Source: a virus. Taken from it: a stretch of 23,603 nt of DNA. The DNA lies in the IMG/VR virus record IMGVR_UViG_3300017743_000127, positions 1-23,603 of that record. The stretch is one strand, 5' to 3'. The first letter of the stretch is position 1. Each line of letters opens with the position of its first letter. Position numbers and translations under genes: made by a program. The notes beneath the pieces were generated by a model that searched no databases, was not told the origin of the DNA, and saw only the letters and a list, made by a program, of their open reading frames with translations. Shown piece by piece: positions 1,137 through 22,158 of the stretch.

Positions 1137-1513
1137 TCGAAGCTCACTTACTTGAAGATGCGATGGAAATTTCCGGCCCAGATCGCCGCAAGTGGATTGT
1201 GGCCGATGATCCTTATCCTGATGATGAGGGATTTTACAAACGCCAATGGATTTATGGTTATCACAAAAGTGGTAACACGGTTGCGGTTTTAGGATATGTT
1301 AAGGGGTGCGGATCATGGGATTCCCCTGCTTATGCCCGTGATAAATTCATTGAACATGATTTACCAACCATGTCCAAGATTTCTACAGACAAACTAAATG
1401 AATCTGTAGGCCTGACAATAAGCTGGATCGGCGATGTTGCCGCTGCCGTGTCTTTGTTTGCGCTTTTGTTTGGCGGTCTATGGGCGGGTGAAATCCTGAG
1501 TATGTATGGATGA
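1121..1513 (+). CDS. Hypothetical protein with C-terminal membrane segment
   Basis: A 130-residue protein with no family I recognise. The N-terminal part is charged and aromatic (segments such as DDPYPDDEGFYKRQWIYGY). The C-terminus has one hydrophobic stretch, IGDVAAAVSLFALLFGGLWAG at about residues 103-123, long enough to span a membrane, followed by only seven residues. A cytosolic domain anchored by a C-terminal helix is the simplest reading. Its 3' end overlaps the methyltransferase start by eight bases and its 5' end overlaps the winged-helix gene by 16 bases. The ATG is preceded by AAGG at 1111-1114. Confidence 0.6.
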   Translation: MYKYLIEAHLLEDAMEISGPDRRKWIVADDPYPDDEGFYKRQWIYGYHKSGNTVAVLGYVKGCGSWDSPAYARDKFIEHDLPTMSKISTDKLNESVGLTISWIGDVAAAVSLFALLFGGLWAGEILSMYG

Positions 1514-2015
1514 GCCGATTTACCGACATTTCGACATTTGTTCTGGGATCGGCGGCTTTGCGTTGGGATTTCTTCAAACTGGTCGCATTGAGACTGTTGG
1601 TTTCTGCGAGATTGATCCTTTCCCCCGACAAATTCTTGAGGCGCGTTTTCCTGATGTGCCGATTTTCAGCGATGTAAAGGGGCTTGCCGATGAATATGCA
1701 AATGGATCTATTCCAAAATTCTCAATACTTACAGCCGGTTATCCGTGCCAACCGTTCAGCCAAGCTGGTAAACAGCGGGCGGAGCAAGACCCTCGCCACC
1801 TCTGGCCGTGGATTGCTGAATTTATTGAACAAGCGCGACCCGCTTTCTGCCTTTTTGAAAACGTGTATGGTCACGTTGCCTTGGGACTCGACAACGTCCT
1901 CTTTGACTTGGAAAGCCAAGGCTACGCCGCAAGGCCGCTTATTATTCCAGCTTGCGGTGTTGGCGCGTTCCACAAAAGAGACAGGGTCTGGATCTGCGCC
2001 CGAAAAATCGGGTGA
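1506..2015 (+). CDS. C5-cytosine DNA methyltransferase, catalytic part (motifs I-VIII)
   Basis: This 169-residue frame carries the N-terminal two-thirds of a Dcm-type methyltransferase. Visible motifs: the SAM-binding motif I FDICSGIGGFALGF (residues 9-22), the acidic motif II region CEIDPF (34-39), catalytic motif IV GYPCQPFS (78-85, nucleophile Cys81), motif VI ENV (118-120) and motif VIII KRDRVW (157-162). It stops directly after motif VIII, so the target-recognition region and motifs IX-X are missing here and lie in the next, overlapping frame (+1). The join falls at a short palindrome, CCCGAAAAATCGGG (1999-2012), just before the TGA. Loss of one A from the five-A run would fuse the frames into a protein of about 399 residues, a normal Dcm length. 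Either a two-polypeptide enzyme, a frameshift product or a sequence error is possible. Confidence 0.9.
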   Translation: MDEPIYRHFDICSGIGGFALGFLQTGRIETVGFCEIDPFPRQILEARFPDVPIFSDVKGLADEYANGSIPKFSILTAGYPCQPFSQAGKQRAEQDPRHLWPWIAEFIEQARPAFCLFENVYGHVALGLDNVLFDLESQGYAARPLIIPACGVGAFHKRDRVWICARKIG

Positions 2016-2709
2016 TAAGACATGGCCAACGCCGTTGGCTCAAGAGGCAAAGCACGGTTCCCCGACTGATTGGGAAATGAAAACTGATCATGCGGGAACC
2101 GCCGGAAGCTTGCGGGTGGCGGTTGCGAAGGAAGAGGTTTGGCCCACACCTACGGCTCAAGACGGTGGGAAGGCGACCAAGCGATGGCGCGACGATCATC
2201 AGAATAATCTGACAGCTGCCGTATTTAATCCAGAAAAACTGTGGCCCACCCCGACATCGATGACGGGCGGGGAGAACCCTGCCCCATCGCATTTCAAAAA
2301 GGGTGAGGGGCGACACGGTTGGAATTTGGGTGCGGCTGTTAAGTCGGGTTTATGGCCAACTCCAGCGGCTGTTAATCACAAGGGGTCACCGAAAAATCGG
2401 TTTATGGGAAGCCCCACCTATCGCGGAAATCTTGATGAGGCTGTTCGCACCCATCACGATGATTTGCATCTCAATCCAAGTTGGGTTGCGTGGCTGATGG
2501 GGTATCCCCCAGGTTGGCTATCAGCGGGCGGAGAATGTGAGATCCAACCGGCGGAGATTGGAGAGCCTTGGCCCGCTGATCCCGGTAAGCGCGTTTGTGA
2601 GAGCTTCCCTGGACGCGCAAATCAATTGAAGGCTTTGGGCAACGCGATAGTTCCGCAGATCGCGCAGATGCTTGGCACTGCGATTGTTGAGGAGCTTGAT
2701 CGTGCTTGA
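1690..2709 (+). CDS. Overlapping-frame methyltransferase partner: target-recognition region and motif X
   Basis: A 339-residue frame whose first 326 bases overlap the catalytic methyltransferase ORF in the +1 phase. AAAGGGG at 1676-1682 lies seven bases before ATG 1690, a strong independent ribosome binding site inside the upstream gene. The C-terminal part is clearly cytosine-methyltransferase-like: LNPSWVAWLMGYPPGW (261-276) and motif X LKALGNAIVPQ (313-323). Four WPTP motifs (112, 151, 185, 222) punctuate the middle. The overprinted N-terminal part contains TSSLTWKAKATPQGRLLFQL (residues 69-88), which resembles a domain I recall from many phage proteins next to Dcm genes; that memory is unverified. 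It probably supplies target recognition and motifs IX-X in trans, as in two-subunit enzymes such as M.AquI. Confidence 0.8.
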   Translation: MNMQMDLFQNSQYLQPVIRANRSAKLVNSGRSKTLATSGRGLLNLLNKRDPLSAFLKTCMVTLPWDSTTSSLTWKAKATPQGRLLFQLAVLARSTKETGSGSAPEKSGDKTWPTPLAQEAKHGSPTDWEMKTDHAGTAGSLRVAVAKEEVWPTPTAQDGGKATKRWRDDHQNNLTAAVFNPEKLWPTPTSMTGGENPAPSHFKKGEGRHGWNLGAAVKSGLWPTPAAVNHKGSPKNRFMGSPTYRGNLDEAVRTHHDDLHLNPSWVAWLMGYPPGWLSAGGECEIQPAEIGEPWPADPGKRVCESFPGRANQLKALGNAIVPQIAQMLGTAIVEELDRA

Positions 2710-3526
2710 TCCGTATAAGCTTCCTGACGGCAATGTGTTACTGAGCATTTCCGGCGGTAGAACGTCTGGTTTTATGTTGCATAAAATCCTACAGACAAAT
2801 CCTGACTACCTGGAGAAATGCAAAATTGTCTTCTGCAATACTGGCCGGGAGATGCCCGAAACCCTCGATTTTGTTCAAGACATGTCGATCCATTGGGGCG
2901 TTGAGTTTGTGTGGCTGGAATACAACCGGCGGGGTGGCAAGGTTACATTCGATATTGTTAACCACAATACCGCATCCAGGTACGGCGAGCCGTTTGAAAC
3001 GCTTTTAAAGTTCAAGGGTTACAACCCGAATGCGGTTGCTCGCTTTTGCACTCAGGAACTGAAGGTACGCACGATCAAGCGCTATTTGCTTTCGATTGGT
3101 TGGGAGCATTGGACATCGGCAATTGGCATCCGGGCGGATGAGGGGCAGCGCGTTAAGACTAAGAGGACGCGGGAGCGTTGGAAGAACTGGTATCCGCTGA
3201 ATAGCGCTGGTGTGGTCAAGAAGGACATCATGGAGTTCTGGAACGCCCAGCCATTTGATTTGGCACTCTACGGGCGGAATGGCGTTACTCCGAAGGGTAA
3301 TTGCGATGGTTGCTTTTTAAAATCGGAAGCCACTTTGGCGATGATGTGGCGCGAGCATCCAGATCGCATGGAGTGGTGGTCGCGGATGGAAGATCAGGCC
3401 GGTGGATCTTTTCACAAGAGCCGCACTTTCAAGGAATTAGGAAATTTTGTGCAAGCCCAAGGGGATTGGATCTTCGATAGCGAGGACTTTCTTTGTCAAG
3501 CAGACGGCGGGGAATGCACGGGATGA
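2702..3526 (+). CDS. Phosphoadenosine phosphosulfate reductase-like PP-loop protein
   Basis: A 274-residue member of the adenine nucleotide alpha-hydrolase (PP-loop) superfamily, of the PAPS-reductase-like type common in phages. The PP-loop is SGGRTSG (17-23), followed by VFCNTGREMPETLDFV, then ARFCTQELKVRTIKRYL with Cys116, then GIRADE, and GNCDGCFLK with Cys201/Cys204. The extra cysteines may hold a metal or Fe-S centre. GTG 2702 is chosen because GAGGAG at 2689-2694 lies seven bases upstream; it overlaps the methyltransferase partner by eight bases. True sulfate reduction is unlikely in a phage. A sulfur- or nucleotide-transfer role, for example in DNA or tRNA modification (DndC belongs to the same superfamily), is an inference supported only by the methyltransferase neighbour. 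Confidence 0.85.
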   Translation: MLDPYKLPDGNVLLSISGGRTSGFMLHKILQTNPDYLEKCKIVFCNTGREMPETLDFVQDMSIHWGVEFVWLEYNRRGGKVTFDIVNHNTASRYGEPFETLLKFKGYNPNAVARFCTQELKVRTIKRYLLSIGWEHWTSAIGIRADEGQRVKTKRTRERWKNWYPLNSAGVVKKDIMEFWNAQPFDLALYGRNGVTPKGNCDGCFLKSEATLAMMWREHPDRMEWWSRMEDQAGGSFHKSRTFKELGNFVQAQGDWIFDSEDFLCQADGGECTG

Positions 3527-3550
3527 AACAAGCAAACAAGGAAGCAAAAA

Positions 3551-3949
3551 ATGTTGATGGCAAGCAGTATAGTTTGTCTGGCGCTTAATATTTATTGGGA
3601 AGCTCGAAGCGAACCGATAGCCGGACAGTTAGCAGTCGCGGAAGTGACGATGAACCGAACCTATTCGGATCGGTTTCCTGATGATGTGTGTTCTGTGGTG
3701 AAGCAGAGCAACTCCAGCGGATGTCAGTTTAGTTGGTATTGCGATGGCAAGAGCGACAATCCCCAGGATGCGCTCGCCTGGAGCCGCGCTCAACATGTGG
3801 CCCGCATTTATCTGAGCAACTCGGACATCATCGATTTCGTCGGCGAGGCCACTTTTTATCACGCTGATTACGTCACGCCTTATTGGGCAAAAACATTTAA
3901 AAAGGAGAGAAAAATTGGACGGCACATCTTTTACTCAATCGACAGTTAA
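3551..3949 (+). CDS. SleB/Hydrolase_2-type cell-wall hydrolase (endolysin)
   Basis: This 132-residue protein is essentially one Hydrolase_2 domain: CLALNIYWEARSEPIAGQLA (residues 9-28, with probable catalytic Glu17), a VAEVTMNRTYSDRFPDDVC segment, GCQFSWYCDG, and FYHADYVTPYWA followed by IGRHIFYS. The family cleaves peptidoglycan glycan strands (lytic transglycosylase or glucosaminidase type), and in phages it is a lysis enzyme. There is no convincing signal peptide; the hydrophobic N-terminus is part of the fold, so export would need a holin, which I do not see beside it. AAGGAAG at 3538-3544 precedes ATG 3551. Its 3' end overlaps the next gene by 35 bases. Confidence 0.9.
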   Translation: MLMASSIVCLALNIYWEARSEPIAGQLAVAEVTMNRTYSDRFPDDVCSVVKQSNSSGCQFSWYCDGKSDNPQDALAWSRAQHVARIYLSNSDIIDFVGEATFYHADYVTPYWAKTFKKERKIGRHIFYSIDS

Positions 3950-7500: not shown

Positions 7501-8022
7501 CTATCTCCCGATAAATTGCGTTGCCCCGATATGATTTTTTGTAAAGAGATACCAAGCGCAGTTATCCTTGCCGGTGTTTTTGCTTCCCTCAATCCACTTG
7601 ACCCGCCCCACTGAAATTACCTTGGAGCAATATCGCTTCATTAATTCCGCTGATTGTTTGGTGTGCATCCAATCGGCATCAAACAGTAGCCACGTTGGCA
7701 CCTGGGCGGCACTGTGTTCGATGAACCCGTGCAGAAACTGTCGATCCCAAGGCGGGTTTGTTATGACAAAATCAACCTTTGAGAAGTCGGCAGCGAAAGC
7801 ATCTTGCGGGGTGATCCACACAGATTTCGGCTCTATGTCTGTAGCAATTTTGCACGAAAGATTAGTAAGAGATTTAATATGCTCAATCAGCCGCCCATCC
7901 CCTGCACAAGGTTCAGCGTATACACCGTGATCGGGTAGATACTGAACCAGCGGGTAAACGGCGCTGATCGGCGTTGGGTAATAATCCCGCTCTACTCTTT
8001 CAAAGTTAGATCGCTTGCCCAT
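7501..8022 (-). CDS. SAM-dependent adenine-type DNA methyltransferase (NPPW)
   Basis: A 173-residue single-domain methyltransferase. It has DYYPTP at 13-18, the SAM-binding motif I EPCAGDG (37-43), an acidic motif II (TDIEP, 61-65) and the catalytic motif IV NPPW (89-92), typical of N6-adenine or N4-cytosine amino methyltransferases. It has no obvious separate target-recognition domain, as in other short phage enzymes of this kind. It likely modifies phage DNA to escape restriction or to time replication or packaging; specificity cannot be read from sequence. It starts within the TGATG junction with the preceding gene and is three genes downstream of the small terminase, an interesting place for a DNA-modifying enzyme. 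Confidence 0.85.
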   Translation of the reverse strand: MGKRSNFERVERDYYPTPISAVYPLVQYLPDHGVYAEPCAGDGRLIEHIKSLTNLSCKIATDIEPKSVWITPQDAFAADFSKVDFVITNPPWDRQFLHGFIEHSAAQVPTWLLFDADWMHTKQSAELMKRYCSKVISVGRVKWIEGSKNTGKDNCAWYLFTKNHIGATQFIGR

Positions 8023-16914: not shown

Positions 16915-17372
16915 TGTCAGAAAATACCCCGGATCTGACAATTTTAAGAAATCAGGTTGCTTATCAAAATGAGTATGCCAACTGTCAGGGTGATGTAACT
17001 GGTGAGTTTATTGGGCGCTATCTTGAGGCCGAGGCTAAACTAAAGATCGTTGAGAAATCTCAGCAAGCTTTGCATGAAAGCCTTGGTGCATACAAAGATA
17101 GAAATGATCAACTGAAGCAAGAAGTCGATCAGGTAAAGGCGGAGCTTGCAGCCGCAAAGACCAACATCGAGGCGTTTGAAACGCAAAACAATGACATGCG
17201 TAATGAGATCCAAGATTTACGCACAAAAAAGCAAACTCTCACGCAGCAAAGGCAAGAAGCTCAAGAGGAAGTTGGTAAGCTTTCTGAAGAAATTTTGACC
17301 CTCAAGCAACAGCTTGAAGATCGGGAAAAGGGGCCAAAACGTGGCAAACGTAGTCAAACACAAGCGAAGTAG
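16914..17372 (+). CDS. Coiled-coil protein between fibre genes
   Basis: A 152-residue protein, mostly one long predicted coiled coil from about residue 35 to 140 (ALHESLGAYKDRNDQLKQEV, then NNDMRNEIQDLRTKKQTLTQ), with a basic tail (KGPKRGKRSQTQAK). No signal peptide or membrane segment, so it is not a spanin. It may act as a fibre-associated trimerisation or assembly factor; this rests on position only. Its last 32 bases overlap the start of the giant fibre gene. Confidence 0.65.
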   Translation: MSENTPDLTILRNQVAYQNEYANCQGDVTGEFIGRYLEAEAKLKIVEKSQQALHESLGAYKDRNDQLKQEVDQVKAELAAAKTNIEAFETQNNDMRNEIQDLRTKKQTLTQQRQEAQEEVGKLSEEILTLKQQLEDREKGPKRGKRSQTQAK

Positions 17373-20300
17373 TACTTCCGGCGAAACGCCCAGCGCTTCA
17401 GATTTAGACGTTGGTGAAATCGCCGTTAATACCGCTGATGGTAAGTTGTTTGTGAAGCACACTGATGGCACTGTTGTTGAAATCTCTGGCGGTGGTGGGG
17501 GCGGGAGCGTTTCGACGCTGTCTGACACGACGATTACGTCCCTCGGTGATGGCGAGTTACTTGTTTATGACACCACTAGCAGCAAGTGGATCAATCAAAC
17601 TCTTTCTGAGGCCGGGATTGCAGCATTGACCTCACCTGGGCTGACCGGAACACCTACTGCGCCAACGGCTAGCGCGGCAACAAACAGCACCCAGATCGCC
17701 ACGACTGCCTATGTAACTACAGCGGTTTCTAATCTGGTTGATAGCGCTCCAGGTGCGCTGAACACCCTCAACGAACTGGCGGCTGCGCTGGGTGATGATG
17801 CTAACTTTAGCACTACTGTAACTAATTCAATCGCTACTAAACTGCCATTATCTGGCGGCACTATGTCGGGCCAGTTAGTTATTGCTGACAACGATGGCGG
17901 TCAGTCTATGTTGCAAGTGCGTAACTTTGCGACTTCAGCCACAGGCGGCTTTACAAACAGCTATACAGCAGAGATTAGAGGCGCAACATCAGGCGGTCAA
18001 ACGCATGGCATGTTGATTAATTTAAACGAAGCAAATGATAGCAGACGAACACTAGACATAGGTGATAACAACGGTGTTTTTGCATCTTTTGTGAATGGTA
18101 AATTAGGGCTTGGTGGTCAGACTAGTCCTGAAGCAAAGCTAGACATTAAAGGCGATACACAGACTTACGCCGGGATGGCAAAGATTTACTTAACTGATAC
18201 TAGCTCAAGCGTCGCTCGACGTAATTGGGCGATAGGTAACGGCGGTAGTGCATACGGAAACTTTACGATTGGCCTCAGTAATGCGGCTGATGGTGATCCA
18301 ATGGCGTCTGGCACTCACACAACTCCGTTTATTATTAATAACAGCGGCAACTCATTCTTCTCAGGCGATGTTCAAGTGGCTGGGCTGTATGTAGGTTCTT
18401 CAAATACGTCCTATGACTTCTACAATAACGGCACGACATATCTTAACGGCGCAACGACAATTGATGATAGTCTTTTAAGCGGCGACATCCATATAAAAAG
18501 TGGAACAAGTGGTACAAACACGCAGGGTTTGCTGTTTAGTCTCAATGACAATGCAGACGCCCAAGCGTATATCAAAAAAACCTCTTATTATATGCACTAT
18601 AACGCCCATCAAAATGAGGGACATAGATTTACCGTTAGTGGAGGTGACGATTTATTGCGGATGCACGGGGCTAACAACGGAACACGCCCTGACAGCATAG
18701 ATATTTTGGCAGCTAATGGCCTTTACATGGGCAACACTCAAGTAATGACGCTGGGTAGAGCGTTAACTAATATTACAGGGGGAACTGTCGCTGGAAGTTT
18801 AACCGTCAACAGCGTAACATTTAAAAGCAACAGCAACGTCACTCGCAATTTAAAAATTCAACCAAGTGGCACCGCAACTGATGTTGGTGTTTCTATATAT
18901 ACTCCCAGCGGTTCCCATTCCATTCAGCTTTATGGCAACGCCACTGAATATGGTTTTTTAGATGCTAATTGGGCAAGCTGGGATATAAAGAAAACTAAAA
19001 ATGGAGCCTTTAAAGTAGATGAAGGCGGCGGCTTACAGCGTGTTTTCAATGATGGCTATCACCCTAACGCAGACGCATGGACTACTGCCAGAACGTTGTC
19101 CCTCTCAGGTGACGCATCAGGCAGTGTAAGCTGGGACGGTTCAGCTAATGCTACACTGAGTGTTAGTGTTGGTGATGCTGATACTGTTGACGGAAAACAA
19201 GCAACAGATTTGCTACACTACAGAGGTGCAGTCAGTGGTGATTGGGATACTATTTTTACAACAGGTACAGGTAAAACAAACACCAGTGGTCTATATCAAA
19301 TAAACAATCACCAAAGTGGTCATAGTAATTACCCCAGTGGTAGTTACAGTTATGGTGGTGTGTTTGCTTGGCAATTAGCTAACAGTACATTTAAACTGTA
19401 TGCACCTCATACTGGCACCCTTTTTTATCAAACTGGTTGGGGTAATGATGAATACAGTGGCTGGCGTAAAATTTGGGATAGTGGCAACGATGGCTCTGGC
19501 AGTGGCCTAGATGCTGATTTGCTTGATGGTGTACATGGTAGTAGCTTCCTAAGAAGTGATGCAGATGATACTTTTACGGGTGATTTAACCCACGTTGGCG
19601 GTGCTGTTTTTGGGGCAGGTACATTAACTGCTGATGGTCAAAATGACATCTTTATGTTTGGTACAAGCCCGACTGGTATTACAGCACAGGGGGGAAACTA
19701 CCATAACAAACTAAGAATTTTAGGCGGTGCAGGTCAAAGCAGAGACTTGCAGCTTTATCAGATAGACAGCGAGTATGCGCATATTGGCTCTAGCTGGACA
19801 AGCAATCAGTTAACTATTGATAGTTCCTTTACTCAGGTAAACTTTAATCAATCTATACGAGCACCCATCTTCTACGACAGCAACGACACTGCTTACTACG
19901 TTGATCCTGCAAGTACATCTGTTGTCAATCAAGTTATAGCCACCAACATAGAGTTTGGAGACAGTACTGGCCCTATTTTATCAGAAGAAAGAAATCAAAA
20001 CCTTAAACTGCAAGGGTCAACCGGCGGCGATGTTGGTATAAGTGGGTATGGTTCTGATGGAAATTGGGATTTTCAATTATACGGCACTGGTGGACAGCAA
20101 GGCTTTTTAAAGTCTAACTGGGGGTCTTGGTCAGCTTATGCTGATACTAGCGGTAACTGGTTTGGTACAGCTAGTGTTCGTGCCCCTATCTTCTACGATA
20201 GCGACAACACAGGTTATTACGTTGATCCAGCAAGTACGGGCAGCAGTGTTCGTATAAAAGGTAATATTGACACCAGAACACAAAACAGCACTACTCAAAA

Positions 20301-22158
20301 TAACCAACTGTATTTTGGTATAAATAACGGTAATGCTAATGGAACCTCGAATGAGATTGGTACAGGTATTACTTGGGCACCTCTATATACATCATATACC
20401 AAACGATCCGCTGGCATCTTACAAATAGGTGAAGGTAACTATTTTAGATCAGGACTTGCATTTTATACAAACAACACCGCTGACGTTTCAACAGATTGGT
20501 CGGAGAGAATGCGGCTTGATATGGATGGCAATCTTATTATCAACCAAGCAGAAATAACCTATACATCAGGTGATAATATACGGCTTACTGGATCGTATAC
20601 ATCAAATAGACTGCACATAAACGGCTCTATACAGCTAACAAACAACGGCGATGCACTAGTGATTGGTCGTGGAACTTCTACATTTCTCTCTGATGAAGAG
20701 CTTGGCTTTGGCTGGGGCAGCGGCTGGTATCAGACAGATGCAACGTATCTAAGGGTGCGTAATAATAAGTCTGTTTACAGCACAGGTGATGCTAGGTTTA
20801 GTACTTACTACGACAGTAACGACACAGCTTACTATGCAAACCCTAACAGTGACAGTAGGATGGCTAGACTGCTTGTTGGTGATGGCAGCAACTACATCCG
20901 CATAGGTGACGAGGGCGAAGGTGCTAATACTAGTTATTCTCGCATCAGAACAGACTCAAGTGGGAATCTTTATTTAGATGCAAAAGGATCACAAAATATA
21001 TATTTAGGTTGGTGGAGTAGTCCTGCTTCTAGGGTTTTCTCAGAAATGGGCGCACAGTTTCCTGTTTACTATGACCGCAACGACACAGCCTACTATACAA
21101 ACCCTGCAAACAACTCTGTGATGAATCAGATCAGTCTGGGTGTTCCAGGCAATGGTTCAAATACCAAAGGCCGTTTTATAGCACTAGAGGGCAACACAGA
21201 CAGTAATGGTGAAGCTTCTAGTCGTATATTCTTCTCAGAACACAATAGCAGTACTGCGAGTATGGACGGATATGGAATGTCTCTTGGCTATCTTGGTGGC
21301 GCTACAAGTATAACAGGTACATCTGGTAACGCTTGGACAGGTTTGTCACAGATCAGCAATGGTCAGTGGGGAATGTGGGGGCATGATGGTAATGCTACAG
21401 GCGCACTCGTTATGTACGGTGATCGTGCTGCTACTTATGTTAACTTTTCTGGCAATGACATTAGTGGTATTAATATTGGAACAGCCGGTAATTCATTCCG
21501 TGCCCCTATCTTCTACGACAGTAACGACACTGCTTACTACGTCAATCCCAACGGCACATCACGCCTAAACGCAATCGACTTTGGTGATAGTAGCCCAACA
21601 CTTTCCCAAGACGGTGATTATTTAAGAGTAACAAGTAGTTACGGATATGCTAATATAGGGGCAGGAAACAGTAGCTACTTTCATTTTTCCACAGACAGAG
21701 GCCAGTTTTACTTCAACAAGACGATACAAGTGGATGGCGATGGCATTCGCATGTACGACACCGCCGCTGATGTTCGTGCATATATCTTTTATGATCAGAG
21801 CGATACAAACTACTACGCTGATCCTGCAAGTACATCTGTATTTAACCAGATCAACGTCACTACCTTAAATTCAACATCTGATATTCGTTTCAAGTCTGAT
21901 CTGCAAAAGATAGACAGCGCTGTTGATAAGTTAAAAACGATTAGCGGCTACACCTACATTCTAAAAGATCACGATGATCGCAAAGCTGGCTTAATTGCAC
22001 AAGAGGTAGAGGGTGTTCTGCCAGAAGCTGTCAAAGGCAGCGAAGATAAAAAACTCTTAGATTACCAAGCGACTATCGCCCTGCTTGTTGAGGCTGTCAA
22101 AGAGCAGTCTGAACAAATCGCAACCCTAAAATCACGCTTAACAAAATTGGAGCATTGA
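17341..22158 (+). CDS. Giant tail fibre with C-terminal S74 intramolecular chaperone
   Basis: A 1605-residue fibre. The N-terminal attachment module (VKHKRSSTSGETPSASDLDV, then GEIAVNTADGKLFVKHTDGT) is followed by fibre modules such as LTGTPTAPTASAATNSTQIA and LPLSGGTMSGQLV. A long Gly/Ser/Asn-rich shaft follows, and then six copies of a FYDSNDTAYYVDPAST-type repeat. The last 93 residues are a peptidase S74 / endosialidase chaperone domain: TSDIRFKSDLQKI with probable self-cleaving Ser1513, AGLIAQEVEGVLPEAV, LDYQATIALLVEAVKE and a terminal coiled coil. The domain drives trimer folding and is released by autocleavage. GTG 17341 has AGGGG seven bases upstream; an in-frame TTG at 17314 is less likely. 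It is the likely receptor-binding protein. Confidence 0.9.
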   Translation: MANVVKHKRSSTSGETPSASDLDVGEIAVNTADGKLFVKHTDGTVVEISGGGGGGSVSTLSDTTITSLGDGELLVYDTTSSKWINQTLSEAGIAALTSPGLTGTPTAPTASAATNSTQIATTAYVTTAVSNLVDSAPGALNTLNELAAALGDDANFSTTVTNSIATKLPLSGGTMSGQLVIADNDGGQSMLQVRNFATSATGGFTNSYTAEIRGATSGGQTHGMLINLNEANDSRRTLDIGDNNGVFASFVNGKLGLGGQTSPEAKLDIKGDTQTYAGMAKIYLTDTSSSVARRNWAIGNGGSAYGNFTIGLSNAADGDPMASGTHTTPFIINNSGNSFFSGDVQVAGLYVGSSNTSYDFYNNGTTYLNGATTIDDSLLSGDIHIKSGTSGTNTQGLLFSLNDNADAQAYIKKTSYYMHYNAHQNEGHRFTVSGGDDLLRMHGANNGTRPDSIDILAANGLYMGNTQVMTLGRALTNITGGTVAGSLTVNSVTFKSNSNVTRNLKIQPSGTATDVGVSIYTPSGSHSIQLYGNATEYGFLDANWASWDIKKTKNGAFKVDEGGGLQRVFNDGYHPNADAWTTARTLSLSGDASGSVSWDGSANATLSVSVGDADTVDGKQATDLLHYRGAVSGDWDTIFTTGTGKTNTSGLYQINNHQSGHSNYPSGSYSYGGVFAWQLANSTFKLYAPHTGTLFYQTGWGNDEYSGWRKIWDSGNDGSGSGLDADLLDGVHGSSFLRSDADDTFTGDLTHVGGAVFGAGTLTADGQNDIFMFGTSPTGITAQGGNYHNKLRILGGAGQSRDLQLYQIDSEYAHIGSSWTSNQLTIDSSFTQVNFNQSIRAPIFYDSNDTAYYVDPASTSVVNQVIATNIEFGDSTGPILSEERNQNLKLQGSTGGDVGISGYGSDGNWDFQLYGTGGQQGFLKSNWGSWSAYADTSGNWFGTASVRAPIFYDSDNTGYYVDPASTGSSVRIKGNIDTRTQNSTTQNNQLYFGINNGNANGTSNEIGTGITWAPLYTSYTKRSAGILQIGEGNYFRSGLAFYTNNTADVSTDWSERMRLDMDGNLIINQAEITYTSGDNIRLTGSYTSNRLHINGSIQLTNNGDALVIGRGTSTFLSDEELGFGWGSGWYQTDATYLRVRNNKSVYSTGDARFSTYYDSNDTAYYANPNSDSRMARLLVGDGSNYIRIGDEGEGANTSYSRIRTDSSGNLYLDAKGSQNIYLGWWSSPASRVFSEMGAQFPVYYDRNDTAYYTNPANNSVMNQISLGVPGNGSNTKGRFIALEGNTDSNGEASSRIFFSEHNSSTASMDGYGMSLGYLGGATSITGTSGNAWTGLSQISNGQWGMWGHDGNATGALVMYGDRAATYVNFSGNDISGINIGTAGNSFRAPIFYDSNDTAYYVNPNGTSRLNAIDFGDSSPTLSQDGDYLRVTSSYGYANIGAGNSSYFHFSTDRGQFYFNKTIQVDGDGIRMYDTAADVRAYIFYDQSDTNYYADPASTSVFNQINVTTLNSTSDIRFKSDLQKIDSAVDKLKTISGYTYILKDHDDRKAGLIAQEVEGVLPEAVKGSEDKKLLDYQATIALLVEAVKEQSEQIATLKSRLTKLEH
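19858..21840 (+). repeat. Six degenerate in-frame fibre repeats (YDSNDTAYYVDP type)
   Basis: The copies begin near 19858, 20179, 20797, 21061, 21499 and 21775. The core is FYDSNDTAYYVDPAST, with variants such as YYDSNDTAYYANP, YYDRNDTAYYTNP and FYDQSDTNYYADP. Spacing is irregular (about 260 to 620 bases), so each caps a variable shaft segment. At the DNA level the copies are unusually alike (for example ATCTTCTACGA at copies 1, 2 and 5), which could promote recombination between segments. Confidence 0.85.

Follow-up and report, generated by a model that had tools for sequence, protein, structure and literature searches.

A phage C5-cytosine DNA methyltransferase probably made as two polypeptides, the second overprinted on the gene of the first

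The window analysed here (an IMG/VR virus record of 23,603 bases that carries terminase, portal, major head and integrase genes) very probably specifies a single C5-cytosine DNA methyltransferase through two polypeptides translated from the same mRNA, the second of which, beta (ORF2), would be independently initiated and overprinted on the gene of the first, alpha (ORF1). An overprinted enzyme of two subunits is what the original prediction had read from the letters of this stretch, and it is supported by the agreement between the homologues of both frames, the beta start with its Shine-Dalgarno sequence and the suppression of synonymous change in the relatives.

Table 1. Features of the putative two-polypeptide methyltransferase, in window coordinates
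Feature	Position	Strand	Basis
Putative alpha subunit (169 aa) with motifs I-VIII of a C5 methyltransferase catalytic domain	1506..2015	+	Pfam PF00145, phrog_363, PDB
Shine-Dalgarno-like AAAGGGG, 7 nt 5′ of ATG 1690, within alpha codons DVKG	1676..1682	+	position is that of the relatives' AGGAG/AAGGAG site
Putative beta subunit, +1 frame, 339 aa from ATG 1690, stop TGA 2707-2709	1690..2709	+	relatives; phrog_1008
Dual-coded alpha/beta overlap, 326 nt	1690..2015	+	drop of synonymous change in relatives
Motif IV PCQ, catalytic Cys codon 1746-1748	1743..1751	+	alpha frame
Beta TSSLTWKAKATPQGRLLFQLA, overprinting the alpha stretch just 5′ of motif VIII; predicted beta-hairpin	1894..1956	+	conserved in beta alignments
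Motif VIII KRDRVW	1974..1991	+	alpha frame
Decayed alpha spacer, frame 0; relic reading MANAV, LAHTYGS, VAHPDIDDG	2016..2520	+	stop counts
Beta WPTP-repeat region, target-recognition-like; low-confidence fold	2017..2469	+	beta-frame constraint in relatives
Motif IX LNPSWVAWLMGYPPGW	2470..2517	+	beta frame; invariant L261, M270, G271, P273
Motif X LKALGNAIVPQ	2626..2658	+	beta frame in the window

Results

The two frames of the window

ORF1 reads as had been predicted, with DICSGIGG as motif I, PCQ as IV, ENV as VI and KRDRVW as VIII, and a TGA stop (2013-2015) seven codons past motif VIII, with TAA following directly (TGA TAA, 2013-2018). It has the motifs I-VIII and the catalytic PCQ of a C5-cytosine DNA methyltransferase, and matches Pfam PF00145 at positions 2-160 (E 2e-32), phrog_363 (E 2e-53) and, in the PDB, M.HhaI at residues 13-173. 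Motifs IX and X, which would complete the fold, are both in the +1 frame, within ORF2, and the 326-nt overlap free of stops, the AAAGGGG seven nucleotides before the beta ATG and the run of five A residues (2003-2007) are all where the original prediction had placed them. The +1 frame is stop-free from upstream of ATG 1690 through to the TGA at 2707-2709. Relatives of beta were found in phages, in IMG/VR and in bacteria, and beta matches phrog_1008 (‘DNA methyltransferase’, E 5e-31); a Pfam search with it gave no match.

The methyltransferase genes stand in a tight run, as the upstream ORF (1121-1513) overlaps the start of ORF1. Directly 3′ of beta is a PAPS-reductase-like ORF (2702-3526), whose probable GTG start at 2702 lies within the end of ORF2; among 250 related loci, six have a homologue of it 3′ of the methyltransferase. 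Another DNA methyltransferase-like gene (phrog_799, E 2e-38) is on the minus strand at 7501-8022, so the phage has at least two modification genes. At 17314-22158 there is a repetitive tail-type protein of 1,614 amino acids, at the end of which a segment resembling an intramolecular chaperone can be recognized by eye. The window comes from one metagenomic record and lacks a sister of the same form, its nearest relatives being about 60% identical in alpha.

When alpha and the second half of beta were modelled as a fusion (by a four-letter step at CGAA), the catalytic domain was confident and the recognition region of low confidence, the helices of motifs IX and X had a pLDDT of 83-95, and the best PDB matches were M.HhaI and M.HaeIII. 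Beta alone gave a model too poor to be used in a fold search (pLDDT 55, pTM 0.24), in which strands 71-78 and 84-91, those of the overprinted hairpin, had a pLDDT of about 84-87. The input to structure prediction omitted rows from annotated phage records.

The nested layout among relatives

A first set of relatives consisted of 160 loci from two IMG/VR scans (one with ORF2 as the query, the other with ORF1 only) and six loci from phage records. Beta was in the +1 frame of alpha in all 165 with an alpha match, both frames were open with beta wholly within alpha in 154 relatives, and all 158 with a detected motif X had it in the alpha frame, as opposed to the beta frame in the window. The usual layout is M.EcoHK31I-like, with motifs I-VIII and X in alpha and motif IX in a nested beta. 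Single departures were also seen: a lone TAG (L159 473) stands within alpha between motifs I and IV, the nested pair being otherwise intact, and in another locus (L029 1728-2528) the overprinted hairpin segment of beta is swapped for a longer one of the ETWPRSGMTRNGTAYQL type.

Among 80 bacterial loci (Paenibacillus, many Alphaproteobacteria, Planctomycetota and others), motif IX was found in an open +1 frame after motif VIII in 57 and in frame 0 in five, four of which were from Actinobacteria; since beta HMM matches confined to the I-VIII overlap can echo the conservation of alpha, this motif IX count is the safer measure. Far from being always one fused ORF with an unconserved +1 frame, the homologues nearly all have beta in the +1 frame, and the few single-frame ones are mostly actinobacterial. 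The latter have motifs I-VIII, LPTP repeats, IX and X in one chain, and this order shows beta to be the counterpart of the usual C-terminal half of a C5 enzyme. Their LPTP repeats, which lie in frame, are like the WPTP of beta, and from such position and homology we infer a role in recognition for the WPTP region. The original prediction had likened TSSLTWKAKATPQGRLLFQL to proteins beside many phage Dcm genes; in the loci examined this segment is part of beta proteins, which are encoded within the methyltransferase gene and not as separate neighbours.

Start site and selection on both frames

The beta start was surveyed in 138 sequences, the window and L177 included. In 119 of them, an in-frame ATG that has a Shine-Dalgarno match of 4 nt or more occurs 5′ of the catalytic PC codons, usually 50-56 nt away; that of the window sits at -53, with an AAAGGGG that is weaker (AAGG core) than the sequences of its relatives. 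The alpha peptide DVKELAND and its variants encode the Shine-Dalgarno sequence and the start of beta together.

The +1 overlap stays stop-free in 28% of permutations of the synonymous codons of ORF1, and the openness of this frame in the window was rejected as evidence by itself (P about 0.28). A chance origin is nevertheless excluded because beta is conserved in the relatives, where it has the same +1 frame, a conserved start and RBS position, and strong dual-coding constraint. Selection was tested on these relatives rather than on the lineage of the window itself. In 75 close pairs, the differences fall on alpha codon positions 1, 2 and 3 in proportions of 28/14/59% 5′ of beta and 21/20/59% 3′ of it, against 50/25/25% within the VIII-X spacer, and four-fold synonymous change goes from 0.36 before beta to 0.17 in the I-VIII overlap, 0.04 in the spacer and 0.38 after the beta stop; such pairwise contrasts are descriptive, since relatedness makes the pairs non-independent, yet they show a very large effect that turns back at either end of beta. 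Over 3,708 pairs, the four-fold synonymous rate is flat (0.58-0.67) up to window nt 1673, drops to 0.44 and then 0.22 across nt 1674-1721, and goes down to 0.04 at 1842-1865, with intervening peaks (e.g., 0.64 at the PCQ motif).

The suppression of synonymous change that was to be looked for in homologues is thus found, and its break coincides with the beta RBS and start and its recovery with the region past the beta stop. In addition, only one frame-0 stop occurs in the spacers of 138 genes of the relatives, against 4.9 per gene expected from the beta protein and codon usage. This avoidance of stops, together with the collapse of synonymous change, upholds the suggestion that both frames are under selection across phages, whilst the conserved start and Shine-Dalgarno sequence and the point at which the constraint sets in argue for independent initiation of beta and against a frameshift at the A run.

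Escape from the overlap

Comparison with the nested relatives marks the window as derived and M.AquI-like, one of a minority in which motif X has shifted to the beta frame and the overlap is largely undone; the old C-terminal half of its alpha has decayed. Its frame-0 spacer (tested part 2017-2520) has 10 stops, and 11.3 would be expected from the coding of beta alone. The shared beta peptide HQNNLTAAVFNPE illustrates this at the codon level, as nested relatives use AAC AAC or AAC AAT, which keep frame 0 open, whereas the window has AAT AAT and TTT AAT, which give TAA twice in frame 0. Nearly all differences between the window and L008 (a nested relative, as is phage C72C1), in the segment compared, are at third positions of beta codons.

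Other AquI-like loci are those of Brevibacillus borstelensis (L177, prophage L298), a second genome of the Brevibacillus family (L256), with a beta 77% identical over residues 1-203 (the best-matching stretch), and the phage loci L170, L307, L311 and L313. A peptide query spanning the IX-X junction, meant for such forms, returned four loci, of which only L170 proved AquI-like. In L170 (2094-3162) motif X is already in the beta frame and the alpha spacer is still open for 305 codons, so that this locus is likely an intermediate in the escape from overlap. In the tree the window branches among nested relatives (support 99/94), with a terminal branch that is long for its group (0.57-0.61), and its starred branches cannot be explained by fewer than three changes of state (Brevibacillus prophages and other phages). 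In a larger tree the AquI-like and three-part forms are scattered in a similar way, although its change counts compare only those two labels with each other.

The three-part form is that of a phage clade (L024, which is the same as L267, and L268, L269, L270, L271, L272 and L273), where alpha stops after motif VIII, beta carries the repeats together with motif IX, and motif X has an ORF to itself, in the alpha frame. In L024 (2374-3939) this ORF spans 3511-3939, with AGAGGAG just 5′ of its ATG; the six further loci have betas that are 51-69% identical. The ATG of the motif X ORF has a Shine-Dalgarno sequence in most loci of the clade, no clear one being seen in L270 and L271, and in several it falls within ATGGCCAACACC, which is the WPTP of beta. 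An alternative genetic code for L024 was rejected, as its spacer has TAA, TAG and TGA. L279 and L290 show the three-part layout in other lineages, and L186 and L234 are further candidates, flagged by script only, in the larger tree.

Discussion

In the scheme proposed here, alpha would bind AdoMet and carry the catalytic Cys, and beta, started at ATG 1690 within the alpha gene from its own Shine-Dalgarno sequence, would supply motif IX, the recognition domain and, to complete the catalytic fold, the motif X segment. Together they would form one enzyme methylating the phage DNA, most simply for protection from restriction. Translation of both frames, assembly, activity, target site and biological role are inferred here. 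Judging from the relatives and the tree, the ancestor would have been nested, its alpha having motifs I-VIII, a spacer overprinted by beta, and motif X; a change of frame between motifs IX and X would then have moved X to the beta frame, after which the alpha spacer would be free to decay. On balance, we favour a wider interpretation for the whole family, namely that alpha and beta are an old, deeply dual-coded pair underlying a very large group of C5 methyltransferases in phages and bacteria, in which the alpha spacer may be mainly a tether and beta the true recognition subunit, and that escape has happened repeatedly, either by transfer of motif X to the beta frame or by giving it a start of its own in an enzyme of three polypeptides, where ATGGCCAACACC would double as the alpha-frame start codon.

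An alpha without motif X, an old spacer full of stops and the long terminal branch of the window could also be taken as signs of a decaying pseudogene, i.e., of an enzyme that died when the C-terminal half of alpha was lost. This is very unlikely, given that all the catalytic motifs of alpha and motifs IX and X of beta are intact, that beta is stop-free over its 339 codons with the differences from L008, in the segment compared, concentrated at its third positions, and that two genomes of the Brevibacillus family retain the AquI-like form, their betas being 77% identical over the best-matching stretch. Even less likely is programmed +1 frameshifting near CCCGAAAAATCGGG, which would give one fused alpha-beta chain and leave the internal start of ORF2 unused. 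ORF1 does end just past motif VIII, at a natural junction, the fused chain models as a C5 methyltransferase, and single-chain relatives exist; however, constraint on the second frame is found well before the shift site, as it begins about 310-330 nt 5′, at the conserved start and Shine-Dalgarno sequence of beta, where a shift at 2003 would give no translation in that frame, and nested relatives would be deprived of motif X by such a shift.

The same position of the onset of constraint, at the beta RBS and start rather than at the A run, speaks against the other alternative named in the original prediction, a one-base sequencing or assembly error in or near that run which splits a single fused gene, and we hold this to be the least likely of all. 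The window is one metagenomic contig, and a one-base change there would restore a continuous single-frame enzyme of the actinobacterial kind. Nevertheless, the overprinted upstream part of beta, with its start and Shine-Dalgarno sequence, is conserved in nested relatives, the many frame-0 stops past 2015 stem from the codon choice of beta and not from one error, and further independent records, including two bacterial genomes from the same family, have the AquI-like form as well. The preferred reading, in our opinion, is still that of two polypeptides with an independently initiated beta.

Similar arrangements have been described. The second gene of M.EcoHK31I lies in an alternative frame within the first gene, and M.EaeI is likewise split into two polypeptides, the second of which has motif IX alone. 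In the window, too, the second gene is read in another frame (+1) within the first, over 326 nt. The split is between I-VIII and IX-X in M.AquI and between I-VIII plus X and IX in M.EcoHK31I, the predicted TRD of the latter being in its larger subunit (PMC3404938). Compared by its published description, M.AquI (CYCGRG) is like the window in having motifs I-VIII in the first polypeptide and IX-X in the second. It differs in that its larger subunit is the one with I-VIII and its smaller the one with IX-X, whereas in the window alpha is the smaller of the two and beta, which has the recognition-like region, starts 326 nt ahead of the alpha end; moreover, the tree places the window among relatives of the EcoHK31I kind. 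Most relatives of the window share the layout of M.EcoHK31I (YGGCCR), with only motif IX in the second polypeptide, from which the window departs by having motif X in beta and not in the large subunit, and by a constrained recognition-like region that is in beta instead of a TRD in the larger subunit. C5 enzymes bisected between motif VIII and the recognition region complement efficiently (PMC5944983), and this bisection point is where ORF1 ends. A plasmid search for the original M.EcoHK31I gave three annotated matches (E. coli, Acidovorax and Xanthomonas), none of them annotated as M.EcoHK31I.

The hidden HNH endonuclease reported in a phage methylase, where the ShiLan domain is a homing insertion (PMC11855218), resembles beta in being an alternate-frame protein within a phage methylase gene, whereas the second frame of the window provides motifs which the enzyme would otherwise lack, and its conservation extends across phyla. 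The proteins of phrog_1008 and the ‘internal genes’ of Paenibacillus larvae phages (Rani gene 51 and Lily gp63) are beta-frame proteins already annotated within cytosine methyltransferase genes, as hypothetical or as a second methyltransferase; a link to a split enzyme or to dual coding was not found in the paper examined. Nor was a paper describing a family-wide overprint found in the open-access literature searched, the subscription literature and REBASE lying outside the scope of the search. Two-polypeptide C5 enzymes are already known; it is the breadth of the family, its deep dual coding, the repeated escape and the three-part split that appear to be new.

Long dual-coding genes on the same strand are thought to be rare in phages and bacteria, and gene finders penalise them. 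The family examined here offers a case with hundreds of sequences, selection on both frames, a conserved internal start and single-frame relatives. It also has its stages of escape caught, from the open spacer of L170 to the decayed one of the window and Brevibacillus and the separate motif X ORF of the L024 clade, and with routes at such different stages, the birth and release of an overprinted gene become directly testable. In practical terms, many phage Dcm enzymes annotated as complete may be partial, their partner being absent from the annotation, which matters for cloning, for the assignment of specificity and for methylome work.
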